Assembly (NCBI RefSeq): GCF_900107635.1
Contig: NZ_FNRD01000001.1
Location: 682,001-746,000, forward strand
From: Flavobacterium gillisiae
Lineage (GTDB): Bacteria > Bacteroidota > Bacteroidia > Flavobacteriales > Flavobacteriaceae
Direction: 5' to 3'
Length of the DNA: 64,000 nucleotides
Positions 5,387 through 38,170 of the stretch are shown in pieces; the stretch's first letter is position 1, and the number at the start of each line of letters is the position of its first letter. The notes beneath the pieces are model-generated. The model ran no database searches. It was not told the DNA's origin and saw only the letters and a program-made list of their open reading frames with translations. Position numbers and translations under genes: made by a program.

Positions 5387-5391
5387 AACGA

Positions 5392-5427
5392 AAAACGTTC
5401 CTTGAAATAATTATCAAGGAACGTTTT
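5392..5427. terminator. Bidirectional terminator hairpin
   Basis: AAAACGTTCCTTGA and TCAAGGAACGTTTT form a perfect 14-bp stem with an 8-nt loop. It lies between two converging genes (stops at 5386 on plus and 5450 on minus) and has A/T tracts on both sides, so it can serve both directions. Confidence 0.9.
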
Positions 5428-5449
5428 AATTTTTTTAAGGTGACTAATA

Positions 5450-5839
5450 CTAATTAGCGATTACATCTCCTTTAATTTTTAAAGGAACTCTACCTTCGTC
5501 ATAATTGACAGCATTAGATTCTACCGTAATCGTTTTTCTGATAGGCCCTACAGCCATGTTATACTTCACTTCAATCTTACTTGATTTTCCAGGTAAAATA
5601 GTATCTGTTTGTTTAGATAGGATAGTAGAACTAGCAGTAGATTGAACAGAATATATAATTAGTGGGGTAGTACCAGTATTTGTAAATTCAAATACTCGAA
5701 CACCATTATCTTTTCCTTTAGTTATGGTTCCGTAATCAATAGTGTTGTTTTCCGCTTTGAATTCAATTTTAGCCCCGTTCTGCGAAAATCCAATACTTGT
5801 AAAGAATATGACCGCTATTATTGTTGCTATTTTTTTCAT
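5450..5839 (-). CDS. DUF1573 domain secreted protein
   Basis: The 129-aa protein has a signal peptide ending GFSQ. One Ig-like DUF1573 domain follows: IDYGTITKGKDNGVRVFEF, then TGTTPLIIYSVQST and the hydrophobic strand pattern ending in VPLKIKGDVI. DUF1573 proteins are common secreted or periplasmic beta-sandwich proteins of Bacteroidota, and their molecular role is not established. Length and pattern are typical of the single-domain form. It is monocistronic, bounded downstream by the hairpin at 5392-5427 and upstream by the divergent valS promoter region. Confidence 0.9.
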   Translation of the reverse strand: MKKIATIIAVIFFTSIGFSQNGAKIEFKAENNTIDYGTITKGKDNGVRVFEFTNTGTTPLIIYSVQSTASSTILSKQTDTILPGKSSKIEVKYNMAVGPIRKTITVESNAVNYDEGRVPLKIKGDVIAN

Positions 5840-5929
5840 AAGATTTTTTTTATAGATAAAAAGTAAATTTAGTTTCTTTTAATTAACCCACAAATTTTTA
5901 TTTCTCTTTTTATAGTGTACTTAATTATT

Positions 5930-5937
5930 TACTTTTG
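5930..5937 (+). promoter_or_regulatory. Candidate -7 promoter element of valS
   Basis: TACTTTTG matches the Bacteroidota sigma-A -7 consensus TAnnTTTG and lies about 60 bp before the valS ATG. The -33 region is only T-rich, without a clear TTG. It is a motif match only. Confidence 0.45.
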
Positions 5938-5999
5938 TTCCCTATATGAATTACAAATATCAGACCAAAGTTTAATTTTGGTTTTAACAGTTGCTTTTT

Positions 6000-8633
6000 A
6001 TGACAATTCCCGCACAATTTGACGCCAAGACTATTGAAGATAAATGGTATGACTACTGGATGAAAAATAATTATTTTCACTCTGAGCCAGACCACAGAAC
6101 GCCATATACCATTGTAATCCCTCCTCCAAATGTTACTGGAGTTTTACACATGGGACACATGTTAAACAATACGATTCAAGATGTCTTGATCAGAAGAGCA
6201 CGTCTAAAGGGCTTTAATGCTTGCTGGGTTCCTGGTACGGATCATGCTTCTATTGCTACCGAAGCTAAGGTTGTTGCTAAACTGAAAGCAGAGGGAATTA
6301 ATAAATCGGATTTAACTCGTGAGGAATTTTTGAAACACGCTTACGATTGGACTGACAAATATGGTGGCGTAATTCTAGAGCAGTTAAAAAAACTAGGAGC
6401 TTCATGTGACTGGGAACGTACTAAGTTTACTATGGATCCTGATATGTCAGCATCTGTAATTCGTTCTTTTGTTGATTTATATAACAAAGGACTAATTTAT
6501 CGTGGGTACCGAATGGTAAACTGGGATCCCGAAGCGAAGACGACTTTATCTGATGAAGAAGTTATTTTTGAAGAAAGACAAGGGAAATTATATTTCATAC
6601 AATATAAAATTGAAGGAAGTGAAGATTTCTTAACGATTGCTACGACACGTCCAGAAACAATTTTTGGAGACAGCGCTATTTGTATTAACCCAAATGACGA
6701 ACGTTTTGCTCATTTAAAAGGGAAGAAAGCGATTGTGCCTATTTGTGGTCGTGTGATTCCTATTATTGAAGATGAATATGTAGATATCGAATTTGGGACA
6801 GGATGTTTAAAAGTGACTCCTGCTCACGATATGAATGATAAAACTCTTGGAGAAAAACACAACTTAGAAATTATTGATATCTTCAATGAAGATGCAACAA
6901 TGAATAGTTTTGGTTTGCATTACCAAGGAAAAGACCGTTTTGTAGTTCGTGAAGAAGTTGCATTAGAATTAGAAACAATTGGTGCACTTACAAAAACAGA
7001 AATACACTTGAATAAAGTAGGGACTTCTGAAAGAACCAAAGCAGTTATCGAACCAAGATTATCAGATCAATGGTTCTTAAAAATGGAAGATTTAGTAAAA
7101 CCAGCAATACAATCTGTATTAGTGGACGGAGATATTAAATTGCATCCTAAACGTTTTGAGAATACTTACGCTCATTGGTTGAACAATATTCGCGATTGGA
7201 ATATATCTCGTCAATTGTGGTGGGGACAACAAATTCCGGCTTATTTCTACGGAGATGGAAAGGAAGATTTTGTAGTTGCTGAAAATATAGAAGACGCTTT
7301 GGCTTTAGCCAAAGAAAAGACTAAGAACTCTGGACTAAAAACGGAGGACTTAAAACAAGATGTTGATGCATTAGATACTTGGTTTTCATCTTGGCTGTGG
7401 CCAATGTCGGTTTTTGGTGGAATAATGGATCCTGAAAGTGAAGATTTTAAATATTATTATCCAACGAATGATTTAGTTACTGGACCGGATATTTTATTCT
7501 TTTGGGTAGCGAGAATGATCATTGCGGGATATGAGTATACGGGTAAAAAACCATTTACTAATGTTTATTTAACTGGATTAGTTCGTGATAAGCAAAGACG
7601 TAAAATGTCTAAATCATTAGGTAACTCACCAGATCCACTAGATTTGATTGAGAAATTTGGTGCTGATGGAGTTCGTGTAGGTTTGCTTTTGAGCGCTTCT
7701 GCAGGGAATGATATTATGTTTGATGAAGAATTATGCAACCAAGGAAAAGGGTTTACTAATAAAATTTGGAATGCTTTCAAACTGATAAAAGGATGGGAAG
7801 TATCTGATACTATTCCGCAGCCAGAATCTTCAAAAGTGGCTATTGAATGGTATGAAGCGAAGTTGCAACAAACCCTTTTGGAAATCGAAGACAATTTCGA
7901 AAAATACAGAATATCAGAAGCTTTAATGGGAACTTACAAATTAGTTTGGGATGATTTCTGTTCTTGGTTCTTAGAAATGATAAAACCGGCTTACCAACAG
8001 CCTATTGACAGCGTAACTTTTGCGAAAGCAATAGAAATGCTTGAAAATAATCTAAAAGTATTGCATCCGTTTATGCCATTCTTGACTGAGGAAATCTGGC
8101 AGATATTAGCAGAGAGAACTCCCGAAGAAGCATTAATTGTTTCAACATGGCCAGAATTAAAGCCTTTCGATGCTGCTCTAATTGCTGGTTTTGAAAATGC
8201 TGCAGAAGTGATTTCTGGAATTAGAACCATTCGTAAAGACAAGAATATTCCTTTCAAAGACGCGATTGAATTAAAAGCGATTAATAACGATTCAGCTTCT
8301 ACTTATTTTGATTCGGTTGTGACCAAATTAGGAAACATTACAGCATTAGAATATGTTTCTGAAAAAGTGGATGGTGCTTTATCGTTTAGAGTAAAATCGA
8401 ATGAATATTTTATTCCGATTACTGGAAACATCAACGTAGAAGAAGAAATTGCAAAATTAACTACGGAATTAAATTATACAAAAGGCTTCCTGAAATCAGT
8501 ACAAGGAAAATTGTCTAATGAAAAATTTGTAAATGGAGCTCCTGAGAAAGTTTTGGCAAATGAAAGACAAAAAGAAGCAGATGCTTTAGCTAAAATTGAA
8601 ACAATCGAGCAAAGTTTAGCTGGATTGAAATAA
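6000..8633 (+). CDS. valS: Valyl-tRNA synthetase
   Basis: This 877-aa class I synthetase charges tRNA-Val. The HIGH-type motif HMGH is at 50-53 in PPPNVTGVLHMGHMLN, and KMSKS is at 535-539 in RRKMSKSLGNSPDPLDL. The central editing (CP1) domain carries the TTRPETIFGD segment that recognises mischarged threonine. The anticodon-binding domain follows, and the C-terminal coiled-coil arm (EEEIAKLTTELNYTKGFLKSV...) is typical of ValRS. I chose ATG at 6000 (MTIPAQFDAKTIEDKWYDYW) over an in-frame TTG nine bases earlier. It is a single gene ending at a hairpin terminator. Confidence 0.98.
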   Translation: MTIPAQFDAKTIEDKWYDYWMKNNYFHSEPDHRTPYTIVIPPPNVTGVLHMGHMLNNTIQDVLIRRARLKGFNACWVPGTDHASIATEAKVVAKLKAEGINKSDLTREEFLKHAYDWTDKYGGVILEQLKKLGASCDWERTKFTMDPDMSASVIRSFVDLYNKGLIYRGYRMVNWDPEAKTTLSDEEVIFEERQGKLYFIQYKIEGSEDFLTIATTRPETIFGDSAICINPNDERFAHLKGKKAIVPICGRVIPIIEDEYVDIEFGTGCLKVTPAHDMNDKTLGEKHNLEIIDIFNEDATMNSFGLHYQGKDRFVVREEVALELETIGALTKTEIHLNKVGTSERTKAVIEPRLSDQWFLKMEDLVKPAIQSVLVDGDIKLHPKRFENTYAHWLNNIRDWNISRQLWWGQQIPAYFYGDGKEDFVVAENIEDALALAKEKTKNSGLKTEDLKQDVDALDTWFSSWLWPMSVFGGIMDPESEDFKYYYPTNDLVTGPDILFFWVARMIIAGYEYTGKKPFTNVYLTGLVRDKQRRKMSKSLGNSPDPLDLIEKFGADGVRVGLLLSASAGNDIMFDEELCNQGKGFTNKIWNAFKLIKGWEVSDTIPQPESSKVAIEWYEAKLQQTLLEIEDNFEKYRISEALMGTYKLVWDDFCSWFLEMIKPAYQQPIDSVTFAKAIEMLENNLKVLHPFMPFLTEEIWQILAERTPEEALIVSTWPELKPFDAALIAGFENAAEVISGIRTIRKDKNIPFKDAIELKAINNDSASTYFDSVVTKLGNITALEYVSEKVDGALSFRVKSNEYFIPITGNINVEEEIAKLTTELNYTKGFLKSVQGKLSNEKFVNGAPEKVLANERQKEADALAKIETIEQSLAGLK

Positions 8634-23324: not shown

Positions 23325-23985
23325 CTTAATTTTTCTTAATGCCTAAATGGTTTAAATTTTTAGGCTTGTACTCAATTTAAAATTGAAATGTTTTTTGAAC
23401 CATTAAGATATTAAGGTTCATTAAGTGTTTTGTGGTTATGTCCTTTACGGTTAAAAAAATTGAAACACATAGAATCATAGAATAAAAGAGAATGTTTGAG
23501 TTCAATACTTGAATTCACATAGCTATGTTATCTTTAAAAAAGTGGAATACCTTTTTAAGATTAAAAATCTATGTTTCTATGTGTTTAAAAAAAATCTTTT
23601 GGGACATTGCGTAGATCTTTGCTGTTAAATTTATAAAGCCTTAATTTTTCTTAATACCTAAATGGTTTAAATTTTTAAGCTTGTACTCAATTTAAAATTG
23701 AAATGTTTTTTGAACCATTAAGATATTAAGGTTCATTAAGTGTTTTGTGGTTATGTCGTTTACGGTTAAAAAAATTGAAACACATAGAATCATAGAATAA
23801 AAGAGAATGTTTGAGTTCAATACTTGAATTCACATAGCTATGTTATCTTTAAAAAAGTGGAATACCTTTTTAAGATTAAAAATCTATGTTTCTATGTGTT
23901 TAAAAAAAATATTATGGGACATTGCGTAGATCTTTGCTGTTAAATTTATAAAGCCTTAATTTTTCTTAATACCTAAATGGTTTAA
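23325..23985. repeat. 315-bp intergenic tandem repeat (2 full copies plus 30-bp third start)
   Basis: Copy 1 (23326-23640) and copy 2 (23641-23955) have the same length and differ at only a handful of positions; a partial third copy ends at 23985. The constant period is seen from CCTAAATGG at 23342, 23657 and 23972. Each unit contains an imperfect inverted repeat (in copy 1, AAACACATAGAATCATAG at 23463-23480 against CTATGTTTCTATGTGTTT at 23569-23586) and internal TTAAG-rich motifs. No coding frame crosses it. It fills nearly all of the 773-bp gap between pyrF and the binding-protein gene. Confidence 0.92.
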
Positions 23986-24060: not shown

Positions 24061-24861
24061 ATGAAAACCCTAACAGACCAGCTCGGAACAACACATACTT
24101 TTGAAACTTCGCCTCAGCGTATAATTTCGTTAGTTCCTTCTCAAACGGAATTACTTTATGATTTGGGTCAGGAAGCAAAAATCATCGGAATTACTAAATT
24201 CTGTGTGCATCCGTATCATTTTAAATCAACCAAGAAGAGTGTCGGCGGTACTAAAAAAGTGCATTATGAAAAAATCCGTTTATTAAATCCGGATCTTATC
24301 ATTTGCAATAAGGAAGAAAATACCCAGGAAATTGTTGAAAGACTAAGTGAAATTTGTCCGGTGTGGGTGACGAATATCATTACCGTAGAAGATAATTTTC
24401 AGATGATCACTGATTTTGGCCAGCTTTTTAACTGTAGAACTGAAGCACAAAAGTGGAATGATAAATTGGCTTTTGCTTTAAGCGATTTTAAAAATTTCAT
24501 CAAAGATAAAACAGTAAAAAAAGTAGCTTATTTTATTTGGAAAAACCCTTATATGGCTGCGGGTTCAGACAATTTCATCAATGAATTGTTGAAGTTGAAT
24601 CACTTCAAAAACATATATGATGATAAAGGACGTTACCCTGAAATTGAACTTGAAAAAATGAAGACAGAAGGCGATCCAGAAATTGTTTTTCTTTCGTCTG
24701 AACCTTTTCCGTTTAAGAAAGAGGATGGATACGAAATAGGACAATACACGAACAAAGCGCAAACAATTCTAGTAGATGGCGAAATGTTCTCTTGGTACGG
24801 CAGCCGACTTTTAAAAGCATTTGATTATTTCAAAATGCTGCGTAAAAATTTAGAAAAATAG
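24061..24861 (+). CDS. Helical-backbone periplasmic metal-chelate-binding protein (BtuF/FhuD-like)
   Basis: The 266-aa product matches the cluster A-II/ABC substrate-binding fold: PQRIISLVPSQTELLYDLGQEAKIIGITKFCVHP, then VGGTKKVHYEKIRLLNPDLIICNKEENTQEIVERL, and the late PEIVFLSSEPFPFKKED. This fold binds cobalamin, heme or ferric siderophores for an ABC importer. No signal peptide is visible; MKTLTDQLGTTHTF starts directly with the fold, as in many annotated Bacteroidota members, so the localisation is uncertain. No permease or ATPase genes are adjacent. It lies beside the TonB receptor operon (converging), consistent with a shared transport task. Confidence 0.88.
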   Translation: MKTLTDQLGTTHTFETSPQRIISLVPSQTELLYDLGQEAKIIGITKFCVHPYHFKSTKKSVGGTKKVHYEKIRLLNPDLIICNKEENTQEIVERLSEICPVWVTNIITVEDNFQMITDFGQLFNCRTEAQKWNDKLAFALSDFKNFIKDKTVKKVAYFIWKNPYMAAGSDNFINELLKLNHFKNIYDDKGRYPEIELEKMKTEGDPEIVFLSSEPFPFKKEDGYEIGQYTNKAQTILVDGEMFSWYGSRLLKAFDYFKMLRKNLEK

Positions 24862-24979: not shown

Positions 24980-27418
24980 TTAAAATACAAACTCCAGAGT
25001 AGTATAAAAAGTTCTAGCATCTGACGGAATGATTCCCGGCCCAGGATATCCTGTAGCTCTTCTTGTAAAATAACTGTTGTTTGTGAAATTAGTTACTCCA
25101 GCTTCTAGTTTCCATTTTTTCCATTTGTAAGATGCAGAAAAGTCGGCAACATAATAAGAAGGGATTTCTCCAAATATCCCGTAAGTGTTATCATTGATGT
25201 CTGTTTTGCTATTGTTCGCTTCTGTATATTGCGAAGAAACATAGGTGAATTGCAGGCTAGACATGAAATTTTTATATCCAATACCTGTTCCCGTTTTGAT
25301 GTTAAAAAGAGGGACAAATTCGACTTTGTTTCCTTCTATATTGGGCGCATCCGATTTTAAGTATTGTGAATCGGTTAAGGCGATGTTAGAAAACACATTC
25401 CAGATAAAGTTTTCTTTTCGTTCAAAGAAAGTTTTGTTTAAACTCCAGTCAAACATGGTTTCAAAACCATAAGTAACGGCAGTACCTATATTAGAACGGT
25501 AACGTACTACAGCCGCAGATCCATTTGGATTACGGGTTTCATATTCACCAATTTTGTCGTTGTAATACAAGCCGTAAATACTGGCGTCAAAAGTTACTTT
25601 GTTGCCTAGTTGTCCACGTACACCAATGTCTGAAGTAAATCCTTTTTCATCGCTTATGTTGGGATCAATCACATTACTTGGACTCACGGTACGGATGTCG
25701 TTAAAAGTCACTGAGCGGTAATTTTGAGATACGTTTCCGTAAAATTCAATTTGGTTTTGAGGCTTGTAACTCAACCCAACACCTAATAATACAAAATTCC
25801 TGTCTTTGACATTGTTCTCTTGTTGATTTTCGTCAAGGATAACATTTCCAGCTAAGTCTAGGTTTATTTTTCGGTAATATCCTTCGGCTTGCGTACGTAT
25901 TTTTTCAAATCTAAAGCCTGGTGTAATAGAGAAGTTTGACGATATTTTGAAAATATTTTCTCCAAAAATAGCAAGGTTTAAATTCGGGAAGGTATAATCT
26001 GACTGGTTTGCATAGAACGGGAATTCGTTATTGGCTAAATTAAAATTGGCATCACTACCTGAGCTACCCGGTCCTTGTAATCCGGTATTTTTTGATTGAT
26101 AGTATTTAGCTCCAATTAAAAAGGCACTTCTATTGTCGTTAATGCTGTAGCGTTTTAAGTAACGTGCTTCGGCTCCCCAGTTCACAAAATCACCTACGAT
26201 TAAATCCCGAACGGTTCCTTCAGCATCAGAACTTGAAACACGGTTTGAGAGATATCCTACCGTTTTTCTACTGGCATCTAAACCAAATAACTGTAAGGAA
26301 AAGTCAGCATCGTTATTGAACTTATGCTCTAATTTTAAAGCGAATAGATTCCAATCTACAGCAAACCAGTTTCTGGTTCTGTTGCTTTGTTTGGGATCTT
26401 GGTTGAACATGAAATCAGTTAAACCACCAGCTTGTTGAGCTAAGTAATTAAAATAGGTATAATCAAAATGCAAAGAAGTTTTGTCATTCAATTGATAGTT
26501 AAGATTAGCGTAATAATTCTTGCTTTCAAACTCGGAGTTGGGTCTAAAACCATTTCCTTGTTTGTGATTGTAAAAACTGTAGTAGCTAAATTTCTTGTTG
26601 GTTCCGCTAACGGAAGTGAAATTAGTAAACAAACCATAAGATCCTACCGTATTTCTAGATGTAAATTCAAAAGGTTTTTTAACCGGTGATTTTATCTTGA
26701 AGTTCACCAAACCTCCAAACTGGGTTCCGTATTGCAAAGAGGCAGCGCCTCTAACGACTTGTATTTCTTCTAAAGCTTCTGTGGGTGTCGCGTAGTAACT
26801 TTCAGGGTATCCTAGAACATCTGCGCTAATATCATAACCGTTTTGGCGGGTGTTGAAATTTGAGGTTCTGTTTGGGTCTAATCCACGACCACCTATACTT
26901 AGTTGTAGTCCACCATCGGAGCTTTCGTTAATTGTTAGGCCCACTACTTGAGCAAATATTTGACGGGCATTGTTGGTTGCTTTATTAGCGGTCAATTTAT
27001 TTATAGATACGACCTCAGTCTTTTTACCGGCATAAATCGCAGTACCCTCAATATCTTTCAGCTTGTGAAGTGCAAATATTTTTTCGTTTTGTTTCTTGAT
27101 GATTACTTCAGAAAGGTTGTTGATTTTAGTCAACGCAATCGTCAGGGTGCTTCCAGTTGTAATACTGTTTTGTTCTACAATAGAATAGCCCTCTTTGAAG
27201 AAAACAAAATCAAAGCTTCCTGATTTTTTTAAATCAATTTCAAAAGCGCCTAAAGCGTCTGTAAATACTTTCGTATTGGACGTTTTATTGTATATTTCTA
27301 CAGCTATTAATTTTTTTCCGTTTCCATCAGTAACTACACCCGCAATTTTATTTTGGGCAAAACTACCTACAGAAAACAATAAAAGGATGAGAATACTAAA
27401 ATCCCTTAATCGTGTCAT
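24980..27418 (-). CDS. TonB-dependent receptor (FecA-like)
   Basis: This outer-membrane TonB receptor is about 812 aa. I place the start at MTRLRDFSILILLLFSVGSFAQ because it gives a clean signal peptide; an upstream ATG at 27457 would add 13 residues. An N-terminal carboxypeptidase-regulatory-like domain (NKIAGVVTDGNGKKLIAVEIYN) is followed by the plug, with LQLSIGGRGLDPNRTSNFNT and EALEEIQVVRGAASLQYGTQ. The plug pattern and length fit the Fe(III)-dicitrate/FecA-like group. The barrel ends in FYTTLEFVF. The start codon overlaps the end of the HTTM gene by 23 bp, so translation is probably coupled. Last gene of a four-gene operon. Confidence 0.93.
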   Translation of the reverse strand: MTRLRDFSILILLLFSVGSFAQNKIAGVVTDGNGKKLIAVEIYNKTSNTKVFTDALGAFEIDLKKSGSFDFVFFKEGYSIVEQNSITTGSTLTIALTKINNLSEVIIKKQNEKIFALHKLKDIEGTAIYAGKKTEVVSINKLTANKATNNARQIFAQVVGLTINESSDGGLQLSIGGRGLDPNRTSNFNTRQNGYDISADVLGYPESYYATPTEALEEIQVVRGAASLQYGTQFGGLVNFKIKSPVKKPFEFTSRNTVGSYGLFTNFTSVSGTNKKFSYYSFYNHKQGNGFRPNSEFESKNYYANLNYQLNDKTSLHFDYTYFNYLAQQAGGLTDFMFNQDPKQSNRTRNWFAVDWNLFALKLEHKFNNDADFSLQLFGLDASRKTVGYLSNRVSSSDAEGTVRDLIVGDFVNWGAEARYLKRYSINDNRSAFLIGAKYYQSKNTGLQGPGSSGSDANFNLANNEFPFYANQSDYTFPNLNLAIFGENIFKISSNFSITPGFRFEKIRTQAEGYYRKINLDLAGNVILDENQQENNVKDRNFVLLGVGLSYKPQNQIEFYGNVSQNYRSVTFNDIRTVSPSNVIDPNISDEKGFTSDIGVRGQLGNKVTFDASIYGLYYNDKIGEYETRNPNGSAAVVRYRSNIGTAVTYGFETMFDWSLNKTFFERKENFIWNVFSNIALTDSQYLKSDAPNIEGNKVEFVPLFNIKTGTGIGYKNFMSSLQFTYVSSQYTEANNSKTDINDNTYGIFGEIPSYYVADFSASYKWKKWKLEAGVTNFTNNSYFTRRATGYPGPGIIPSDARTFYTTLEFVF

Positions 27419-28763
27419 TGAAAGGCAGTATCCAAGTTTTGTGTTTGAAATTTTCATTTTCGTTAGCTAGATTTATTTTTGGGTCTATATATTTTTGGCT
27501 TAATCTTCCGTTTAGTGCTACATAGCTTTCTACATAAACTTCCGGATTATTAAGGCCTTGTTTTTGATAATAATCGTGTAAATAATGAGCATATTCCAAA
27601 ATGAAATCGGGCTGGAAAGCCATTTGTTTTTCTTGAAATGTGGTCAAAAAGTGACTGTTGTTGATGGTGATTTCCTTTTTAGAAACTGCATCTTTTACTT
27701 TAAATGTGGCATATCCTGCTTTTTCCATTAACATAACGCGCCACGAGAATCGGAAACCTTCTTCAGTCCAAAACAACTCATTGGGATAACATAAATAACG
27801 AAACGGGAATAGTAACTGAAACGCAATAAAGCAGCTTATAAAAACTAATTTTGTTTTATATAGAGAGTTAAGAGCGGGTATTTTTTCTTTTCCATTTTCG
27901 AATATTAAAATAGGAATGGAAATCAGTTTCCCTAAAAAGGACAATGCTTTTTTATGGAAATTAGCATCAAAGAAAATCAAAGAACTGATGATCATTACAT
28001 AAGGGAAAACGCCAATTGGGAATAATATTTTAGTTAGAATATGAAATACAACAACTAAAATAAAACCGAATATTCGGGTTCTTTTGTAAAGTAATAAGAC
28101 CACAATTCCGAGGTCATAGATAGCTCCAGTCCAGCTAAACACATAATGCACCCAGTTTTCATTTAGTAATGAACCTATTAATGGGAGATTAGAGTTATTA
28201 GGCAACCATATTTTAAGTGGCATAGCTTCCAATAGCCAGTCGGAGTTTAGTTTTGCTAATCCAGCGTAGAAGTAAACAATAGCCAATAATAATTTTAAAA
28301 TGTCAATATTCCAACGTGGAACCTTCTCAAATCGGATTTTTTCATTCTTTAAAGCATCCACTGAAAAATAACAGTTTGCTGGTAAAAATAACAGCACAAG
28401 ACTAATAATAGTGATGAAATAATAATGATTAAGGTAAGTTGTCTTGTCTAGTAGTTCGATGTAGGTAAAGCTCAAGAAAAAGGCAGCGATAGCCCACTTG
28501 TATTTATATCCTATTGCGACAAATAAAGCAGCGAGTCCAGCAATGATAAAAAGTAAATAGGTGTAGTTCCCAAAAGGTTTTACCCACTGAAACCCGTAAT
28601 ACGTAAAATGAAATTGCGGATCAATATAGAATTTCTTAATCCATCCGTAACTCGCAAAGCGAATTAAACTCAATAGCATCATCAAACCAAACGCTAGCCT
28701 AAAAAAAGCTAGCGTCGAGGCATTTGAATACGTATTCAGATATTTTTTAATTTGGGTACTCAT
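27396..28763 (-). CDS. HTTM (vitamin K-dependent gamma-carboxylase-like) membrane protein
   Basis: The 455-aa product has multiple transmembrane helices: FFRLAFGLMMLLSLIRFASYG, YLLFIIAGLAALFVAIGY, IDILKLLLAIVYFYAGLAKL and others. The horizontally transferred transmembrane (HTTM) family pattern is visible in YFYAGLAKLNSDWL and LLFPFRYLCYPNELFWTEEG, with a C-terminal soluble region (KMAFQPDFILEYAHYLHDYY) resembling the VKGC lumenal domain. Homologues include gamma-glutamyl carboxylases, but bacterial HTTM functions are mostly unknown. It sits 2 bp after the imelysin gene and overlaps the TonB receptor, so it is a core part of this iron-type operon. Confidence 0.88.
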   Translation of the reverse strand: MSTQIKKYLNTYSNASTLAFFRLAFGLMMLLSLIRFASYGWIKKFYIDPQFHFTYYGFQWVKPFGNYTYLLFIIAGLAALFVAIGYKYKWAIAAFFLSFTYIELLDKTTYLNHYYFITIISLVLLFLPANCYFSVDALKNEKIRFEKVPRWNIDILKLLLAIVYFYAGLAKLNSDWLLEAMPLKIWLPNNSNLPLIGSLLNENWVHYVFSWTGAIYDLGIVVLLLYKRTRIFGFILVVVFHILTKILFPIGVFPYVMIISSLIFFDANFHKKALSFLGKLISIPILIFENGKEKIPALNSLYKTKLVFISCFIAFQLLFPFRYLCYPNELFWTEEGFRFSWRVMLMEKAGYATFKVKDAVSKKEITINNSHFLTTFQEKQMAFQPDFILEYAHYLHDYYQKQGLNNPEVYVESYVALNGRLSQKYIDPKINLANENENFKHKTWILPFNDTIKGF

Positions 28764-28765
28764 AA

Positions 28766-29884
28766 TTAATCACCGTCTCCATCAACATAGTCAATAGTAA
28801 TGTTTAAAGCTTGCATCATGTCTAGTTTAGTATAGATTACATTTTGTTGTAACGCATCGTAAGCTAGGATCATTTTTGCATTATCTGTATTTATCTGACT
28901 TGAGAAGCTGTTGTTTAGAGTAGCATTTACTGCAAAAATAGCGGTAAATTGATTGTTGATAATCGTGCTCAGATTTTGGCCGTTACGAACAGTTTTAAGG
29001 TAATCCAAATAAGATGCTAAACCTTCTCCTGAGGTGGTTTTATTAAAGTGTTTTCCGTTAAAGAAATCTTGTGAAGCTTGAATGGCCGTGTTTAATAACT
29101 CTTTTGAAACATCGTTTTTATAAAAACCTTCTACTTTCTCTGGGTATTTTACCCCGCCAGAGAAAACCCCTGCTGGAATTCCAAGTTTTCCAGAACGTAC
29201 ATTTTTCTCTAAATTCTTTACGAAGTTATTTGTAGTAATGTTTACTGAACTGCTTACAGAAGTTCCGCTATTGGCAATGTAACTGTTTCTATAACTTGAA
29301 TTCCAGTCTGCTAATACAGTATCTGCACTTGACTTTAAGCGCGTAACGACATCGGTTAAGTATTTTTTATAGTTTGCTGCATTTACGTTAGTGGTATAAC
29401 GAGCTACAATTAACGCATCAGTAGTATTTGATCCATTAATCAAATAATCCAAAGCAGGGAAACCTTGTTTGTCAAATTGAGACAACAATGCCAAGTTGTA
29501 TCCACCTGCACTAACATTAGCCTCAATGCCTGCGGCATTAGTAGGGTAAGTATTAGCGCTCTCTTTTAAGTTGATTTCCTCTGATTTTCCAAAACTGTAA
29601 ATAGCAACATATTGATATGCTTTATAAGCTTCTAGCCAAGAGGTTCTCACAGCTTGAAGATTTGTCGTGGTTGAAACACTGTTAAAAGCAGTAATATTCG
29701 TTGCTAATATTTCGATTTTAGCTTGGTAATTAACATAACTAGGGATAATGATATTGTCTGCCCAGTTAGTCAAAAGCACTGTTCTATTATAGTTGTTGCC
29801 GTCTGTGCCAGCGTTACTATCGTCACTTGAAGAACAAGCTGCAATAGTTAGTAAAGCACCAAAGAATATAAATAGTTTCTTCAT
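28766..29884 (-). CDS. Imelysin family lipoprotein lacking the GxHxxE motif
   Basis: The 372-aa lipoprotein (lipobox Cys17 in LLTIAACSSS) matches the imelysin/insulin-cleaving peptidase (M75) fold: RTVLLTNWADNIIIPSYVNYQAKI, TSWLEAYKAYQYVAIYSFGKSE and the C-terminal ILAYDALQQNVIYTKLDMMQALNITIDYVDGDGD. Imelysins are iron-associated periplasmic or surface proteins. The signature GxHxxE is replaced by GFPALD (141-146): the His is Pro and the Glu is Asp. This copy may therefore bind differently from its divergent paralogue at 31473. I chose the ATG at 29884 for the signal peptide. It lies 2 bp before the HTTM gene and 59 bp after the DUF4856 gene. Confidence 0.9.
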   Translation of the reverse strand: MKKLFIFFGALLTIAACSSSDDSNAGTDGNNYNRTVLLTNWADNIIIPSYVNYQAKIEILATNITAFNSVSTTTNLQAVRTSWLEAYKAYQYVAIYSFGKSEEINLKESANTYPTNAAGIEANVSAGGYNLALLSQFDKQGFPALDYLINGSNTTDALIVARYTTNVNAANYKKYLTDVVTRLKSSADTVLADWNSSYRNSYIANSGTSVSSSVNITTNNFVKNLEKNVRSGKLGIPAGVFSGGVKYPEKVEGFYKNDVSKELLNTAIQASQDFFNGKHFNKTTSGEGLASYLDYLKTVRNGQNLSTIINNQFTAIFAVNATLNNSFSSQINTDNAKMILAYDALQQNVIYTKLDMMQALNITIDYVDGDGD

Positions 29885-29943
29885 TTTAAAATATTTTTTG
29901 CAAAAATACAAAACCAATTGTACTTATTTGTATTAATTCTAAA

Positions 29944-31149
29944 TTAATTTACCGTTGCAGCCTGTGCAACTGTGAAGCCAAATTTAGTAGCAATTTGTAC
30001 TGATATGCTGTCTAACTTTGTTCCAAGGGTGTCAATATCCCAAAATCCATTTGTACCGCTTATCATAGTAGCTAACATCGCATCAACTTCTGCTTTTGTA
30101 AAATAAGGTTTGTCAGTACCTGGTTTGTTAGTGTATCGCAATGAAATGATAAAACCGTATGCTTCTGAAAGGGCGTGAAAAGCTTTGGCACCTTTATCGG
30201 TTGTTAATTTTCCTTTTCCTTCTTGAAGATAGAAAACGGCTCTAACCGCTGGTACTATAGCCAGTTTGGCTTTGATGATATCAATTTGTGCATCACGAGT
30301 AGTATAATCATTGGCTACAATTGCCGCTCTACCTGTGCGAAAAGCTAGGTTGATATCTGCTTTTACAGTATTGAAATCAGTATCAGCATTTACTTGGTCT
30401 ATGTAACTACTCCAAAATTTTGTACCATCTACACCATAGATGTAACCGTAAGCCTCATCCCAAGTATGTTCCATTGTAGTGTACGTTTTACTGTCTTCTA
30501 AAACTTTATTGGTGTTGTTTATTTTATTGGTCCCTTCGTCTAATTTATTTTTGCTTAAATAATTATTGACAATTTGATCCATGAAAGAAGCTCCCATCAT
30601 CCCTTTTAGTAAGACTTGTTGTGGCTCTAATCCATTGGATGCAAACAATCTTTTGCTGGTGCCATCAAGATAAGAACCTGCTACTCCTGCTGAGGCTGCT
30701 GTACCCAGACTTGCTGTATTTGCCAACGTTAGTTGGGTTTCAAAGAAAGCTTGAACACTTATTTTTTCAGTAGTTGTTCCGCCACCTAGAAATAATTGAA
30801 AGTAGTCTTTTGAAGCTGCAGTCTTATCTTTTAATTGTTTTCCCGATGTATTTAGAGCAGTAGTTTCAAAGGCGTTGTTTGTATTAGAATACATATTGGT
30901 CAAAACAGACTGACTTGCCACTGTTCCATTTGTAGCAGCAGTTTTGATGTTATTTCCCATTTCTTCAAGCATAAGTAAACGACTGCTTTGTCCAGAAAAG
31001 TCTACTGTTGTTGAACTGCTTCTTTCAAATGTGTAAGTTGCTGGAACGGTATAATTAGGAGTTTGTTCTGAATTATCATCATTTGAACATGAGGTAATTG
31101 TTAACGCTGTCATTAGTAACGTTGAGAGTAGAACTTTATTTAGTGTCAT
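29944..31149 (-). CDS. DUF4856 lipoprotein
   Basis: The 401-aa lipoprotein has its lipobox Cys at 21 (LTITSCSNDD). The body matches DUF4856: YTFERSSSTTVDFSGQSSRLLMLEEM, then QVLLKGMMGASFMDQIVNNYLS, then MEHTWDEAYGYIYG and AFHALSEAYGFIISLRYT. DUF4856 proteins co-occur with imelysins in Bacteroidota and probably share a helical imelysin-like fold; their biochemical role is unknown. It is the first gene of the leftward operon (DUF4856, imelysin, HTTM, TonB receptor), and its promoter region carries several TTTAGA/TCTAAA palindromes. Confidence 0.9.
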   Translation of the reverse strand: MTLNKVLLSTLLMTALTITSCSNDDNSEQTPNYTVPATYTFERSSSTTVDFSGQSSRLLMLEEMGNNIKTAATNGTVASQSVLTNMYSNTNNAFETTALNTSGKQLKDKTAASKDYFQLFLGGGTTTEKISVQAFFETQLTLANTASLGTAASAGVAGSYLDGTSKRLFASNGLEPQQVLLKGMMGASFMDQIVNNYLSKNKLDEGTNKINNTNKVLEDSKTYTTMEHTWDEAYGYIYGVDGTKFWSSYIDQVNADTDFNTVKADINLAFRTGRAAIVANDYTTRDAQIDIIKAKLAIVPAVRAVFYLQEGKGKLTTDKGAKAFHALSEAYGFIISLRYTNKPGTDKPYFTKAEVDAMLATMISGTNGFWDIDTLGTKLDSISVQIATKFGFTVAQAATVN

Positions 31150-31159
31150 AACAGTTGTT

Positions 31160-31464
31160 TATTTAGATTGAATAAGAATAAATTTTATGCAAATATATAA
31201 CTCAATTTTAGAATTCCAAAACTTTGTTTAGAATTTTTCTAAATAATATTTATTCGTTCAGATCAACAAGTTACAAGAGGTGTAGGGATGTTTTTTGAAG
31301 CTACATCTTCGAACAAAAAAGATAGGATTTGGATATTTATCCTAAATAACAGTAAATAAGATTGTTGTAAATGTTTCTTAATTTTTATTTAAAATTAATC
31401 TAAATAAGATTTTGTCGTTTAAATAAAAGCATATACTTTCGCTTAAATTTAATTAATCTAAATA
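31160..31464. promoter_or_regulatory. Divergent promoter with array of TTTAGA/TCTAAA operators
   Basis: The 323-bp gap between the divergent DUF4856 and imelysin genes contains four related elements: TATTTAGA at 31160-31167; the palindrome TTTAGAATTTTTCTAAA at 31227-31243; the imperfect palindrome TATTT...TAAATA at 31386-31406; and TCTAAATA at 31457-31464. The same half-sites form the palindrome upstream of the siderophore receptor (14527-14541). The spacing and duplication suggest a metal-responsive repressor (Fur or DtxR family) controlling both arms. Binding has not been shown. Confidence 0.6.
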
Positions 31465-31472
31465 ACAATACT

Positions 31473-32642
31473 ATGAATAAAGTGCTTTTGAGAACATCAT
31501 TATTTTTATTAATCGGAGGTTTAATATTCTCATGTAATAACGATGATAATGCTTCAACTGATTCTAATGTCACTAAAAAAGAAGTTGTCGAAAACTATGC
31601 GAATATTGCTTACGCCAATTATAAACAAGCTTATGATGATGCTGTTGTTTTAGAAACAGCGATAAATACTTTTACGAATGCTCCAACTCAAGCTAATTTT
31701 GATACAGCTAAATCAAAATGGAAACAATCAAGAGAGAGTTACGGTACTACAGAAGCTTTTCGTTTTGCTAATGGTCCCATTGATGATGAAAACGGACCAG
31801 AGAGCTTAATGAACGCTTGGCCGTTAGATGAAAATTATATCGATTATGTAGAAGGAGCGAGTACTTCAGGTATTATTAACAATCCAGTTTTATTCCCCAT
31901 TATTGACAAGGCTTTCTTAGAAGCTCAAAATGAAAATGGTGGAGAAAAGAATATTAGTGTGGGTTACCATGCTATTGAATTTCTACTTTGGGGACAGGAT
32001 TTGACTGCGCCTTCTGAGAAAAAAGCGGGATTACGCCCTTTTACTGATTATGTTGTGGGTGGAACTGCTGCTAATCCATTACGTAGAGCGGCTTATTTAA
32101 AAGTTTGTGCTGACCTTTTGACGGATCATTTGGACTATATGGTAAACCAATGGAAAGTAGATGGAACATATAGAAAAACGTTTTTAGCATTATCTGATGA
32201 TCAAGCAATCAAGAATATATATTTAGGAATAACAACTCTTGTTTCAGCTGAATTACCTGTTGAGCGTATGTATGTTGCTTTAGGAAATGCAGATCAAGAA
32301 GATGAACATTCTTGTTTTAGTGATAATACACACAGAGATATTGCTTTGAATTTACAAGGTGTTATTAATGTTTACCAAGGAAAATATGGCATTATTGACG
32401 GTCCTTCGTTAGAAGATTTAGTAATGCAAGCTAATGTAGCTGTTTACAATGATACTAATGTTGCTGTTAATGCTTCTTTAACCAAAGTAGCTGCTATTCA
32501 AACCCCTTTTGATTTAGCCATTTCTGGTGGAATCGACTCTGTTGAAGGTGCTAAGGTTAATGTTGCTGTTGTAGCACTTAAAAACTTAGGCGCTAATTTA
32601 TTGGCTGGAGCTGTTAAAATAGGAATTATCGTTAATGGGTAA
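31473..32642 (+). CDS. Imelysin family lipoprotein with canonical GxHxxE motif
   Basis: The 389-aa lipoprotein has its lipobox Cys at 21 (GGLIFSCNND). The imelysin (M75) fold shows WKQSRESYGTTEAFRFANGPID near 83-104 and the signature GYHAIE at 164-169 (ISVGYHAIEFLLWGQDL). The C-terminal region is VERMYVALGNADQEDEHSCFSDNTHRD. Imelysins of this type are iron-regulated and implicated in iron binding or uptake. It begins the rightward transcript diverging from the DUF4856 gene and is followed by the di-heme oxidoreductase gene. The paired positive and divergent imelysin copies in one locus are notable. Confidence 0.95.
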   Translation: MNKVLLRTSLFLLIGGLIFSCNNDDNASTDSNVTKKEVVENYANIAYANYKQAYDDAVVLETAINTFTNAPTQANFDTAKSKWKQSRESYGTTEAFRFANGPIDDENGPESLMNAWPLDENYIDYVEGASTSGIINNPVLFPIIDKAFLEAQNENGGEKNISVGYHAIEFLLWGQDLTAPSEKKAGLRPFTDYVVGGTAANPLRRAAYLKVCADLLTDHLDYMVNQWKVDGTYRKTFLALSDDQAIKNIYLGITTLVSAELPVERMYVALGNADQEDEHSCFSDNTHRDIALNLQGVINVYQGKYGIIDGPSLEDLVMQANVAVYNDTNVAVNASLTKVAAIQTPFDLAISGGIDSVEGAKVNVAVVALKNLGANLLAGAVKIGIIVNG

Positions 32643-32664
32643 TTTAAGAATATTTGTATAATCT

Positions 32665-32691
32665 AAAGTGTCCTTTTTTTAAGGACACTTT
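32665..32691 (+). terminator. Hairpin between imelysin and di-heme genes
   Basis: AAAGTGTCCTT and AAGGACACTTT form a perfect 11-bp stem followed by a T tract. It lies 22 bp past the imelysin stop and 17 bp before the next start, so it may partly attenuate read-through into the di-heme gene. Confidence 0.8.
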
Positions 32692-32707
32692 TTTCTGTTT
32701 TAAAATA

Positions 32708-34108
32708 ATGAAGAATAGTGTAAAGATTTTGTTTTTGTTGATTGGTTTTCAATTCTATAGCTGTAGTAATAGTGATGATAAATACATTACGCTTACTGCC
32801 GAAGAAGGAGAACAATACTCAGGTGGTGAAACTACCTTTTTTAATGCTACCGAGGAGGCTTTTGGTTTTTCGGCGCCTAATTTGACTTTTGATGAACAAA
32901 GTGATTTCGGAATCGGGAATTCCTTTTTTCGTCAAAGTTGGGTAACAGCTCCGGCCTCTACAACCGCCAGAGATGGTTTAGGACCTTTTTTTAATGCTAC
33001 ATCATGTTCTAGTTGTCATTTTAAAGACGGTAGAGGTAGAGCACCATTAGTTGATGGAGAAACGGCACATGGTTTATTGTTGCGTTTAAGTGTAGCTGGT
33101 GTCAACAGTAATGGTAGTTCGTTTTCGGATCCTATTTATGGGGGACAATTACAGGATAATGCCGTTTTAGGACAAACTGTAAAAGGAAAATTCAATATTG
33201 TTTATCAGGATATAACAGAGACTTTTGAAGATGGAACTGTAGTAATACTTAGAAAACCCAATTATCAAATTAATAGTTTGGGTTACGGTGAATTTGCTTC
33301 AGGTATAAAAGTATCTCCTAGAGTAGCCAATCAAATGATCGGTTTAGGCTTATTAGAAGCAATTGATGAAAGCACATTACTTAAATGGGCAGATCCTAAC
33401 GACAATAATAAGGACGGAATTTCAGGAAAATTAAATTATGTATATGATATCGCTTCTAATTCAAAGACAATAGGGCGCTTTGGCTGGAAAGCAAATCAAC
33501 CCAATGTTCGTCAACAAGTAGCTGCTGCTTTTTCTGGTGATATCGGAATCACATCTAGTTTGTTTCCAACAGAAAACTGTCCCCCAGGTGTAGATTGTGA
33601 TGTAATTCCTAACGGAGGTAGTCCAGAAATCACAGATTCTAATCTAAACAAGGTAGCCTTGTATTCGAGTACGCTTGCTGTTCCTGCCAGAAGAAATTAC
33701 ACAGAGCAAAATGTATTGGAAGGAAAGAAAATATTCGAAACAATTAATTGTACGAGTTGTCATATTGCTAAAGTACAAACCGGAAATACACATGCGATTA
33801 CAGCGTTGCGCAATCAAACCATTAGACCGTATACAGATTTGTTGCTGCATGACATGGGAACTGGTTTAGCGGATAACGCACCCGATTTTGAGGCTTCGGG
33901 TAGTGAATGGAGAACGCAGCCTTTATGGGGAATTGGTTTAATCAGCACCGTAAATAAACACACTAATTTAATGCATGATGGTAGAGCAAGAAACGTTACT
34001 GAAGCTATTTTATGGCATGGTGGAGAAGCTCAGAATGCAAAGAATAGCTTTAAAAAACTAGCTGTAACAGATAGAAATAAGCTAGTGGAATTTATAAATT
34101 CACTATAA
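32708..34108 (+). CDS. Di-heme oxidoreductase (DUF1111/DHOR) lipoprotein
   Basis: This 466-aa cytochrome c-like protein has two CxxCH heme-binding motifs, CSSCH at 100-104 and CTSCH at 348-352, plus a lipoprotein signal with Cys19 (IGFQFYSCSNSD). The family pattern RQSWVTAPASTTARDGLGPFFNATSC and DNAPDFEASGSEWRTQPLWGIGL is typical of DHOR/thiol-oxidoreductase-like proteins. The earlier in-frame ATG at 32654 overlaps the preceding hairpin, so I use 32708. Its position beside an imelysin resembles iron-uptake modules in which a periplasmic cytochrome may change iron redox state; that role is inference. Confidence 0.93.
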   Translation: MKNSVKILFLLIGFQFYSCSNSDDKYITLTAEEGEQYSGGETTFFNATEEAFGFSAPNLTFDEQSDFGIGNSFFRQSWVTAPASTTARDGLGPFFNATSCSSCHFKDGRGRAPLVDGETAHGLLLRLSVAGVNSNGSSFSDPIYGGQLQDNAVLGQTVKGKFNIVYQDITETFEDGTVVILRKPNYQINSLGYGEFASGIKVSPRVANQMIGLGLLEAIDESTLLKWADPNDNNKDGISGKLNYVYDIASNSKTIGRFGWKANQPNVRQQVAAAFSGDIGITSSLFPTENCPPGVDCDVIPNGGSPEITDSNLNKVALYSSTLAVPARRNYTEQNVLEGKKIFETINCTSCHIAKVQTGNTHAITALRNQTIRPYTDLLLHDMGTGLADNAPDFEASGSEWRTQPLWGIGLISTVNKHTNLMHDGRARNVTEAILWHGGEAQNAKNSFKKLAVTDRNKLVEFINSL

Positions 34109-35419: not shown

Positions 35420-36142
35420 TTACTTTTTATCTTGTAAGGCAAAGACTTTCTTAAGAACATCAGAAGTTCTTGCGTTTAAATTGCCTCTAATATTTTTTTC
35501 TTCTACGGTAATCATTTTAAAAACACCATCAAGCGCTTTGTTTGTAACGTAATCTGTAATATCTGGATTTACCTTAGAAACGAATGGCAGTGTATTGTAT
35601 TTTGTAATAATATTTCCCCAAATTACATCAGCACCAACTTTACCAATAGAGGTTTGTACCACGGGACTAAATTTGGCGTATAATGCGGTTGTTGTACTAG
35701 TTTGTAAATAATTAGTAGCCGAATTGTCGGCACCTAATAAAATACTTTTGGCGTCAGTAATACTCATGTTTTTTATGGCTGAAACAAAAATTGGCGTTGC
35801 TTCTTTTACAGCATCTTCGGCAGCACGATTTAGTGCTTTGATACCGTCGTCAGCTAAGCTGCTCATTCCCATTTTGCGCAAAGTTTGGTCTACTTTAACT
35901 AATTCTTCGGGCATTAAAATCTTGACAGCTTCATTTTTATAAAATCCGTCAGCCTGGGTTAATTTAGAAACTTGCTCTGTAACTCCTTTATTTAAGGCTT
36001 CTTTTAGTCCAGCTGCAATATCTAAACCCGAATTTGAACTGCTAATAGCGGTCGCTTTATCAGTAGCTTTTTTTAGTAAATCTTTGAATTGTGCGGAACT
36101 AATTAAAGGAACAAACAACAATAGTAATAGTAGCTTTTTCAT
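35420..36142 (-). CDS. DUF4197 secreted protein (paralogue 1)
   Basis: The 240-aa protein has a signal peptide (KKLLLLLLFVPLISSAQ) and the DUF4197 pattern: GLKEALNKGVTEQVSKLTQADGFYKNEAVKILMPEEL, then GIKALNRAAEDAVKEATPIFVSAIKNMS, then DVIWGNIITKYNTLPFVSKVNPDITDYVT. Function is unknown; the family is helical and periplasmic or surface-associated. A very similar copy at 37244 flanks purU on the other side, indicating a local duplication. I chose the second ATG (36142) because it opens the signal peptide. Confidence 0.9.
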   Translation of the reverse strand: MKKLLLLLLFVPLISSAQFKDLLKKATDKATAISSSNSGLDIAAGLKEALNKGVTEQVSKLTQADGFYKNEAVKILMPEELVKVDQTLRKMGMSSLADDGIKALNRAAEDAVKEATPIFVSAIKNMSITDAKSILLGADNSATNYLQTSTTTALYAKFSPVVQTSIGKVGADVIWGNIITKYNTLPFVSKVNPDITDYVTNKALDGVFKMITVEEKNIRGNLNARTSDVLKKVFALQDKK

Positions 36143-36183
36143 TTTTTTAAATTTATTCAATAGGATTTTGTTCTAAAATAGTT

Positions 36184-37243: not shown

Positions 37244-37954
37244 TTACATCTTCTTGTCCTGCATAGCAAAAACTCTTTGTAATAAAACGGAGGTTCTTGA
37301 GCTAAGACTAGTTCTGATATTTTTTTCTTCAACAGCCACCATTTTAAAAACCCCATTCATTGCTTGATTGGTTACATAGTCAGTCAAATCCGGATTTACC
37401 TTATTTACCAGTGGAATGCTATTGTATTTAGTGATGATGTTCGTCCACACTTTGTCAGCGCCTACTTTAGTAAAAGAGTTTTTTATTACTGGATTAAATT
37501 TCCCGTATAAAGCAGTAGAAGTACTGTTTTGTAAATAGCTTGTTGCTGCACTTTCGTTACCCATCAAGATACCTCTGGCATCTGCAAATGACATACTTGT
37601 TACTGCATCTACAAATATGGGAGTTGCTTCCTTCACTGCGTCTTCTGCCGCACGATTCAACACTTTAAGACCTTCATCAGCTAGAGAGCTAAGACCAATG
37701 CTTCTTAATCCAGCATCGACTTTTCTCAATTCTTCCGGTAGAAGAATCTTCACCGCTTCATTTTTGTAAAAACCATCAGTCGCAGTCAACTTAGTTACTT
37801 GTTTAGAAATACCGTTATTCAGGGCTTCTTTTAGTCCTCCTGAAATATCAAGGAAACCTGTTCCGTCCGTCTGTGGAAACTGATTCATTACTTGTTGCAT
37901 CTCAGCGCAACCAAAAAGAGAAAATACCATTGTTAAAAGCAAAAATTTTTTCAT
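37244..37954 (-). CDS. DUF4197 lipoprotein (paralogue 2)
   Basis: The 236-aa product is closely similar to the protein at 35420: EALNNGISKQVTKLTATDGFYKNEAVKILLPEEL, VLNRAAEDAVKEATPIFVDAV and YNSIPLVNKVNPDLTDYVTNQAMNGVFKMVAVEEKNI. It differs in having a lipobox (MKKFLLLTMVFSLFGC, Cys16) rather than a plain signal peptide, so the copies probably reside in different compartments. An ATG two codons upstream is an alternative start. Function unknown. Confidence 0.9.
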   Translation of the reverse strand: MKKFLLLTMVFSLFGCAEMQQVMNQFPQTDGTGFLDISGGLKEALNNGISKQVTKLTATDGFYKNEAVKILLPEELRKVDAGLRSIGLSSLADEGLKVLNRAAEDAVKEATPIFVDAVTSMSFADARGILMGNESAATSYLQNSTSTALYGKFNPVIKNSFTKVGADKVWTNIITKYNSIPLVNKVNPDLTDYVTNQAMNGVFKMVAVEEKNIRTSLSSRTSVLLQRVFAMQDKKM

Positions 37955-38170
37955 ATTCATCGTTTTATTAGTTTACTTCAGCTGCGTTACCATTTGGCTC
38001 CAGCCAAAAATACTACTTCTTCAAATATAAAGCCACTATTTGTTTTTTGGAGCAGAAACTTTAGGTTTTTTTAAGAAGATGTTTGTTTCAATTATGAATG
38101 TTAATTTTTAGGTAACTTATATCAAAAGAACAATTGGTTTATCTACAGCAATATTTAATCGACTTAAATG

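Follow-up and report, generated by a model that had tools for sequence, protein, structure and literature searches.

The window analysed here, a 64,000-nucleotide stretch of the Flavobacterium gillisiae genome (contig NZ_FNRD01000001.1, positions 682,001 to 746,000 of the forward strand), carries a leftward operon encoding, in order, a DUF4856 lipoprotein, an imelysin of the M75 family (imelysin A, M75A), a homologue of the vitamin K-dependent gamma-carboxylase (VKGC; GGCX in humans) and a TonB-dependent receptor (TBDR). Diverging from it is a rightward pair of genes for a second imelysin (imelysin B, M75B) and a di-haem oxidoreductase (DHOR). The operon is a new version of the imelysin iron systems, in which the enzyme is the unexpected part, and very probably serves iron acquisition. 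The explanation that we favour, albeit with a confidence just short of even, is Fur-controlled iron acquisition at the outer membrane in which VKGC carboxylates a co-encoded lipoprotein. We place a similar or slightly lower confidence on VKGC being catalytically active and acting on a protein encoded beside it.

A carboxylase homologue in a recurrent operon

Relatives of the window genes were drawn from a survey of 198 genomes spread across the phylum Bacteroidota and from the best 80 of 570 confirmed candidate loci (hereafter the named loci), the latter mostly from Flavobacteriaceae, with Roseivirga, Fulvivirga, Lewinella and Balneolaceae in addition. The third product of the operon had been described in a first-pass annotation of the window as a polytopic HTTM protein of unknown chemistry; judged by its sequence, it is instead a full-length VKGC/GGCX homologue with intact catalytic residues. 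HTTM and VKGC_lumenal (PF22777) are both present in its single chain of 455 residues, with 272 and 202 bits, respectively, against Pfam cut-offs of 27.7, and a phmmer search of solved structures aligned residues 8–448 with residues 54–505 of human GGCX (E ∼1e-42). The model predicted from the window protein together with 39 of its named relatives (average pLDDT 85.4, below 50 at the terminal residues 453–455) matched GGCX structures, the TM score over the query reaching 0.82; the first structure unrelated to GGCX followed at E 0.05.

In human GGCX, K218 is the catalytic base, H160, N159 and Y395 lie at the substrate glutamate, N158 and R436 contact the backbone of the Gla domain, and F286, F294, F299, W223, M401 and other residues surround the quinone (PMC12589487, in the text available). 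The residues equivalent to human K218, H160, N159, W223, G259, F286, F294, F299 and M402 are invariant in 41/41 survey sequences and in 81/81 from the named loci; the two sets overlap, with some genomes in common and the window in both. In the window protein K218, H160 and N159 correspond to K171, H113 and N112. Human N158 (Leu) and M401 (Val) are not conserved. Alignments comprised, besides the window, 27 of the 40 M75-linked or orphan survey VKGCs (A1), 55 of the 73 named DUF4856 proteins (A4) and 39 of the 80 named VKGCs (A5); apart from the window sequence, the members of A1–A3 are each missing the final residue, the reference sequences being one codon short.

Conservation of the gene neighbourhood, proposed in the first-pass annotation as a check, was borne out, the operon recurring across the phylum. 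The survey returned 52 VKGC-lumenal matches in 46 genomes, 33 DUF4856 matches, 57 M75 matches over the cut-off in 47 genomes and DHOR in 37 genomes; one M75 fragment below the cut-off (G105:C3) was excluded from the neighbourhood counts. An M75 gene lies on the same strand within 2 kb of 39 of the 52 VKGC genes, and each of these 39 loci continues after VKGC with a TBDR related to that of the window (M75A-VKGC-TBDR). Nearly all DUF4856 matches (31/33) fall inside the VKGC operon. Sorted by partner, the 57 M75 genes comprise 39 linked to VKGC, 17 with DHOR no more than 2 kb away and one at a contig end. VKGC and M75 occur together in 41 of the 198 genomes, out of 46 and 47 possessing each (hypergeometric probability 2e-30, kinship ignored). 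Eight M75-linked loci have no Pfam match to DUF4856; in seven of them an open reading frame (ORF) resembling DUF4856, or a weak match to it, occupies that place. Six of these seven are included in alignment A2, of whose 31 members 29 match DUF4856 at E values up to 1. At the eighth, L091, no DUF4856-like ORF was found in the operon, and a Fur-box-like site directly precedes M75A.

The full order DUF4856-M75A-VKGC-TBDR was found in 69 of the 80 named loci; the 11 exceptions include L147, where it is rearranged, and L123, L187 and L191, which are at contig ends, as is L069 in the survey. Within the genus Flavobacterium, a VKGC match is present in 36/101 genomes, so the operon is patchily distributed even here. 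Seventeen of these matches exceed 190 bits, and 16 of the 17 have an M75 gene within 4 kb (counted by hand).

In a tree built from 61 VKGCs, a branch supported at 100/99 sets apart every M75-linked sequence (47) together with three others (two from Roseivirga and the lone gene L065); the M75-linked L099 forms a long branch. A single origin of the M75-linked clade, followed by losses of the linkage, is the best reading of this topology. Seven VKGCs form a separate group (support 100/100) and are encoded directly after ribF, the gene for FAD synthetase and riboflavin kinase (L063, L064, L066, L067, L068, L070 and L071). Several of these ribF-linked loci share identical further neighbours, and the catalytic K218 and H160 are kept in them.

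Fur boxes and the response to iron

Fur-box-like sites were scored by their mismatches to the Riemerella consensus (PMC5609570), binding thus being predicted, and were compared with first-order resamplings of the same stretch (shuffles). In agreement with the shared promoter region of the first-pass annotation, a single AT-rich region of 323 bases (31150–31472) parts the two directions of transcription, and within it lie the two sites of the 64-kb window that match the Fur box best (31226 and 31387), a fit equalled in 2/1,000 shuffles of the region; the control made within genes is not matched to it in composition. Of the named loci, 78 were scanned (all 80 without L123 and L187): a box with three or fewer mismatches precedes the operon in 71 of them, compared with 31 of 7,800 shuffles, the median distance to the listed start being 94 bases. 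In the survey, 29 of 38 loci have a Fur box at a shuffle p value of 0.05 or less, including three with a G+C content above 50% (L084, L087 and L098).

The response to iron, another check proposed at first pass, finds support in the transcriptome of Riemerella anatipestifer (PMC5609570), that is, in one paper and in another genus, whose genes were equated with the operon by annotation and order only. Four consecutive genes, RAYM_09779, 09784, 09789 and 09794, are annotated there as TonB receptor, vitamin K-dependent gamma-carboxylase, imelysin and hypothetical protein. They are induced by iron restriction (−Fe/+Fe ratios as printed of 2.11, 2.64, 3.07 and 2.41) and listed as Fur-regulated (ratios of fur mutant to wild type with iron, as printed, of 1.90, 1.39, 1.93 and 1.36), the rule for significance of these ratios being stated in log2. 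In the fur mutant the same genes still rise without iron, by 2.70, 2.77, 2.92 and 3.07, and Fur is therefore not their sole control in Riemerella. None of the four appears in the Fur-box table of that paper, and in the text available the word 'carboxylase' occurs once, in a table. In Bizionia argentinensis, which carries the operon at L175, an imelysin-like gene falls in an mliR mutant and another receptor rises with iron (PMC9478572, in the text available).

As to the cargo, the NCBIfam models nearest to the window receptor are TIGR01783 (siderophore receptors; E 1e-35) and FecA (ferric dicitrate; E 1e-21), both below their cut-offs, while the neighbouring Peripla_BP_2 protein has a match below the cut-off to the haem-binding IsdE, among others. 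The system had been put forward as one for iron or haem. For iron, the conserved neighbourhood, the Fur boxes and the Riemerella listing all speak in favour, whereas little was found for haem beyond that IsdE match, the receptor being siderophore- or FecA-like.

Candidate substrates, proposed mechanism and rival explanations

Imelysin A (M75, 82 bits in Pfam) has GFPALD in place of the GxHxxE motif: the His is lost and, relative to the GxxxxE of the IPPA type, Asp stands for Glu. Its relatives have D or E at this Glu position or, in a few cases, other residues. Glu237, Lys244 and Glu263 are invariant in 115/115 VKGC-linked sequences, while five DHOR-linked relatives vary at the positions of Glu237 and Glu263; aligned by eye, Lys244 and Glu263 match a Lys and a Glu of the imelysin 3n8u, and Glu237 a Glu of the IPPA structure 3pf0. 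The C-terminal DGD of imelysin A is nearly invariant (76/77, with one DAD, and 42/42). It was considered as a VKGC-specific tag and rejected: three of the 42 sequences are DHOR-linked, and the DHOR-linked imelysins of L143 and L170 also end in DGD. Since the solved IPPA chain, too, aligns to ...TDG one residue before its end, DGD belongs to this kind of imelysin and not to the linkage with VKGC. The final residues of solved IPPA are disordered, and 'DGD' does not occur as a term in PMC3143127. The Asp-Gly-Asp end of IPPA-like imelysins, VKGC- and DHOR-linked alike, may be a docking tail.

In DUF4856, Tyr39, Lys182, Tyr249, Tyr307, His325 and Glu329 are near-invariant (101–104 of 104 sequences) and, as far as alignment can suggest, could bind a metal. 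The predicted model is mostly helical (mean pLDDT 91.9); Foldseek gave no match to it at E 0.001, and the family profile had no match at E 1 among sequences of solved structures. The idea of a hidden imelysin found no clear support: besides the lack of a Foldseek match, imelysins reached Z scores of only 4.1–4.5 in VIA-align, among unrelated helical entries of equal or higher Z, and profile comparisons gave nothing meaningful, with matches confined to the signal peptide or to one weakly similar stretch. Structure prediction, as proposed at first pass, gave a GGCX-like fold for VKGC and no fold match for DUF4856, a family unmentioned in the open-licence PMC papers searched.

According to the favoured explanation, iron starvation would induce the operon under the control of Fur, presumed to bind the predicted boxes in F. 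gillisiae. The exported lipoproteins DUF4856 and imelysin A would, together with the FecA-like receptor, gather iron or an iron complex and hand it over, with iron as the probable ligand and import as the probable direction of flow. In the inner membrane, VKGC would use menaquinol and O2 to form a strong base, as human GGCX does with vitamin K hydroquinone, and would carboxylate one or more glutamates of its putative substrate, imelysin A or DUF4856, as this crosses the periplasm. The resulting gamma-carboxyglutamate (Gla) could provide the lipoprotein with an extra metal ligand. Imelysin B and DHOR would form a second module with a Fur box, placed beside the operon in some Flavobacterium. The choice of menaquinone as cofactor follows what is generally known of Bacteroidota. 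The most specific form of this scheme, a Fur-run menaquinone-dependent gamma-carboxylation in which Gla made by VKGC in imelysin or DUF4856 forms a high-affinity iron site feeding the TonB receptor, is possible, although we regard it as rather doubtful.

With human GGCX the window VKGC has in common the membrane domain, the start of the lumenal domain, K218/H160/N159 and the residues of the quinone pocket; it differs in its location in a bacterial inner membrane, in its likely use of menaquinone and in that no Gla-domain substrate is known. Imelysin B and DHOR resemble the imelysin/DUF1111 iron operons of the PA4370-PA4373 type in Pseudomonas aeruginosa (PMC3143127) and the LruB locus of Leptospira (PMC7567364), in which imelysins that respond to Fur or iron have a partner of the haem-peroxidase type, described for Leptospira as a thiol peroxidase with a cytochrome-c-like domain. 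Compared with imelysin/DUF1111 operons, imelysin A of Bacteroidota is paired with VKGC and not with DHOR, and DUF4856 is added. The use of an M75 protein recalls EfeUOB/M, a system of ferrous iron uptake (PMC9174327, PMC3143127), but a Pfam scan of ten window proteins found no EfeU permease, and a TonB receptor and VKGC are present instead. In the open-licence PMC literature, as far as its text was available, we found no physiological role assigned to a bacterial VKGC. Here, its operon, its Fur boxes and its clade all link a bacterial VKGC of the Bacteroidota with iron acquisition, candidate substrates are encoded alongside, and the question of what bacterial VKGCs modify, if anything, becomes experimentally tractable. 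DUF4856 gains a context, and imelysins prove not to pair only with DHOR peroxidases. If true, the Gla reading would give a prokaryotic vitamin K-dependent carboxylase a native substrate and a role, and would point to the capture of metals as an ancient use of gamma-carboxylation chemistry.

Several observations weigh against the favoured explanation. The part of GGCX that binds the propeptide, past human residue ∼505, is absent, VKGC ending shortly after the equivalent position; K217 is replaced by Ala, and R436 by Gln in 34/41 and 81/81 sequences; the C99–C450 disulphide is not kept, F53 and Y/F/H394 standing in for the cysteines in the window and the named loci. Having neither propeptide-binding domain nor disulphide, the window protein is not of the animal propeptide-dependent GGCX type. 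From these sequence comparisons the chemistry of VKGC looks intact and the docking of its substrate does not, so its choice of substrate must differ from that of GGCX. The model falls below a pLDDT of 50 in the loop before the active-site Asn and His (109–111) and at 330–343. Inspected by eye, neither M75A nor DUF4856 has a conspicuous Glu-rich segment of the Gla type. Five named loci have no DUF4856 (L128, L130, L132 and L133 of Flavobacterium, and L143 of Winogradskyella), Roseivirga L146 and L156 have DUF4856-VKGC with neither M75A nor receptor nearby, and one genome keeps a VKGC of the M75 clade alone (L065); neither lipoprotein is therefore an obligatory partner everywhere. The Roseivirga loci are useful for telling on which lipoprotein VKGC acts. 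The second clade, beside ribF, indicates that the VKGC fold is not tied to iron. No VKOR match was found in the window's genome, and VKOR is present in 7/39 genomes with the iron-linked VKGC, compared with ∼8 expected; a vitamin K cycle with VKOR is thus unsupported, and any epoxide would have to be reduced by other means or replaced by synthesis. Finally, in nine of the 38 survey loci the scan revealed no clear Fur box; in seven of these no DUF4856 was recognised and the scan covered only the stretch before M75A, the remaining two being L083 (p 0.8) and L089 (p 0.06).

Some of these points also fit an iron system in which the target of VKGC is a small molecule, such as the ligand that the receptor takes up, or in which VKGC only epoxidises menaquinol: the missing propeptide-binding domain and the replaced K217 and R436, the related clade beside ribF with no M75 partner, and the variable presence of both lipoproteins are all in its favour. 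We consider it unlikely, if to be kept in mind. Against it, the residues that bind glutamate (N159, H160) and the catalytic base (K218) do not vary, as befits a Glu substrate, and the VKGC family is not known for small-molecule chemistry. Less probable still is a catalytically idle VKGC that would instead help, in the inner membrane, to assemble or dock the lipoproteins or the receptor. The Leptospira orthologue is said, by Rishavy and colleagues, to have altered activity, suggestive of a role other than carboxylation; an idle enzyme would, however, be expected to drift, and the nine key residues are invariant in both sequence sets, divergent members included.

The first-pass annotation had envisaged a single pathway of surface capture, redox and import; in such a pathway DHOR and both imelysins would be needed. 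Its appeal lies in the genus, where M75B (above 200 bits) and a canonical VKGC (above 190 bits) lie within ∼12 kb of each other in 7/8 genomes possessing both (counted by hand, the window genome included), and in the three arrangements of the M75B/DHOR pair beside the operon in named loci: divergent upstream (L126, L128, L130, L132 and L133), downstream on the same strand (L131) and downstream on the opposite strand (L143 and L170). Moreover, a Fur-box-like site with at most three mismatches was found at 10/17 M75B starts, a count that has no shuffle control and in which divergent pairs share the stretch. Across the survey, however, the two modules lie within 10 kb of each other in only 3/198 genomes, all of the window's genus, and a DHOR-linked imelysin is present in only 7 of the 39 genomes with the M75-VKGC pair, the other 32 being without one. 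Imelysin B and DHOR are a module separate from the VKGC operon, and we reject them as core parts of it; the repeated adjacency suggests a related function, while the usual separation means that neither module needs the other next door. The single pathway is rated quite improbable. Least probable of all is that the metal is not iron (copper or manganese, for instance), or that the imelysins serve mainly in peroxide defence, Fur control being incidental. The Leptospira operon of imelysin, cytochrome-c-domain peroxidase and imelysin is indeed also induced by H2O2, but its imelysins are reported to be induced by iron limitation too (PMC7567364, in the text available); the Fur boxes, the iron response in Riemerella, the resemblance of the receptor to FecA and siderophore receptors, and the imelysin literature (PMC3143127) likewise point to iron.

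The locus and its surroundings

The arrangement of the six genes given at first pass is confirmed by the ORF list and by Pfam, which agree on their coordinates (Table 1). ORFs were called from the first start codon, and a true start may lie further downstream; for imelysin A, the likely ATG is at ∼29884 (MKKLFIFF). The leftward genes are tightly spaced, imelysin A ending at 28766 and VKGC starting at 28763, and the end of VKGC (27396) overlaps the receptor ORF, which starts at 27457.

Table 1. Genes and Fur-box-like sites of the locus (window coordinates).
Feature	Position	Strand	Remarks
TonB-dependent receptor	24980..27457	(-)	Pfam E 4e-29; CarbopepD_reg-like N-terminal domain; FecA/siderophore-receptor-like; last leftward gene
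VKGC/GGCX-like membrane enzyme (HTTM + VKGC lumenal)	27396..28763	(-)	PF05090 E 6e-81; PF22777 VKGC_lumenal E 5e-60
Imelysin A (M75A), lipoprotein, probably IPPA-like	28766..29917	(-)	Pfam E 7e-23
DUF4856 lipoprotein	29944..31149	(-)	Pfam E 8e-131; first leftward gene
Imelysin B (M75B), LruB/ICMP-like (insulin-cleaving metalloproteinase) lipoprotein	31473..32642	(+)	Pfam E 5e-65; GYHAIE
DHOR (DUF1111) di-haem oxidoreductase, putative lipoprotein	32654..34108	(+)	Pfam E 4e-107; two CxxCH
Fur-box-like 19-mer	31226..31244	(.)	2 mismatches to Riemerella consensus; ∼77 bases before DUF4856 start
Second Fur-box-like 19-mer	31387..31405	(.)	2 mismatches; ∼68 bases before imelysin B start
Weaker Fur-box-like site	29926..29944	(.)	3 mismatches; lies between DUF4856 and imelysin A; perhaps a chance match

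Imelysin B has the GxHxxE motif at position 164 and matches a solved imelysin of the insulin-cleaving metalloproteinase type with a phmmer E value of 1e-56. Against the NCBIfam LruB model it scores 183 bits, below the equivalog cut-off of 850. DHOR matches PF06537 with 359 bits against a cut-off of 22 and has its haem-binding motifs at 118 (CSSCH) and 366 (CTSCH).

In the Winogradskyella locus L143, where DUF4856 is missing, an ORF of 732 residues (4799–6997 of that locus), by eye membrane/flavodoxin/reductase-like, precedes imelysin A together with two small ORFs. Next to the operon in the window, and convergent with it, is a gene for a TroA-like/Peripla_BP_2 protein (24061–24861) with no signal peptide evident by eye; a gene of this kind adjoins the operon also in L112, L123 and L126. 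Between it and an OMPdecase-like gene there is a 315-base tandem repeat of 2.1 copies with 98% matches (23325–23985). Beyond DHOR, two DUF4197 ORFs (35420–36160 and 37244–37960) flank a formyl-transferase ORF with an ACT match below the cut-off.

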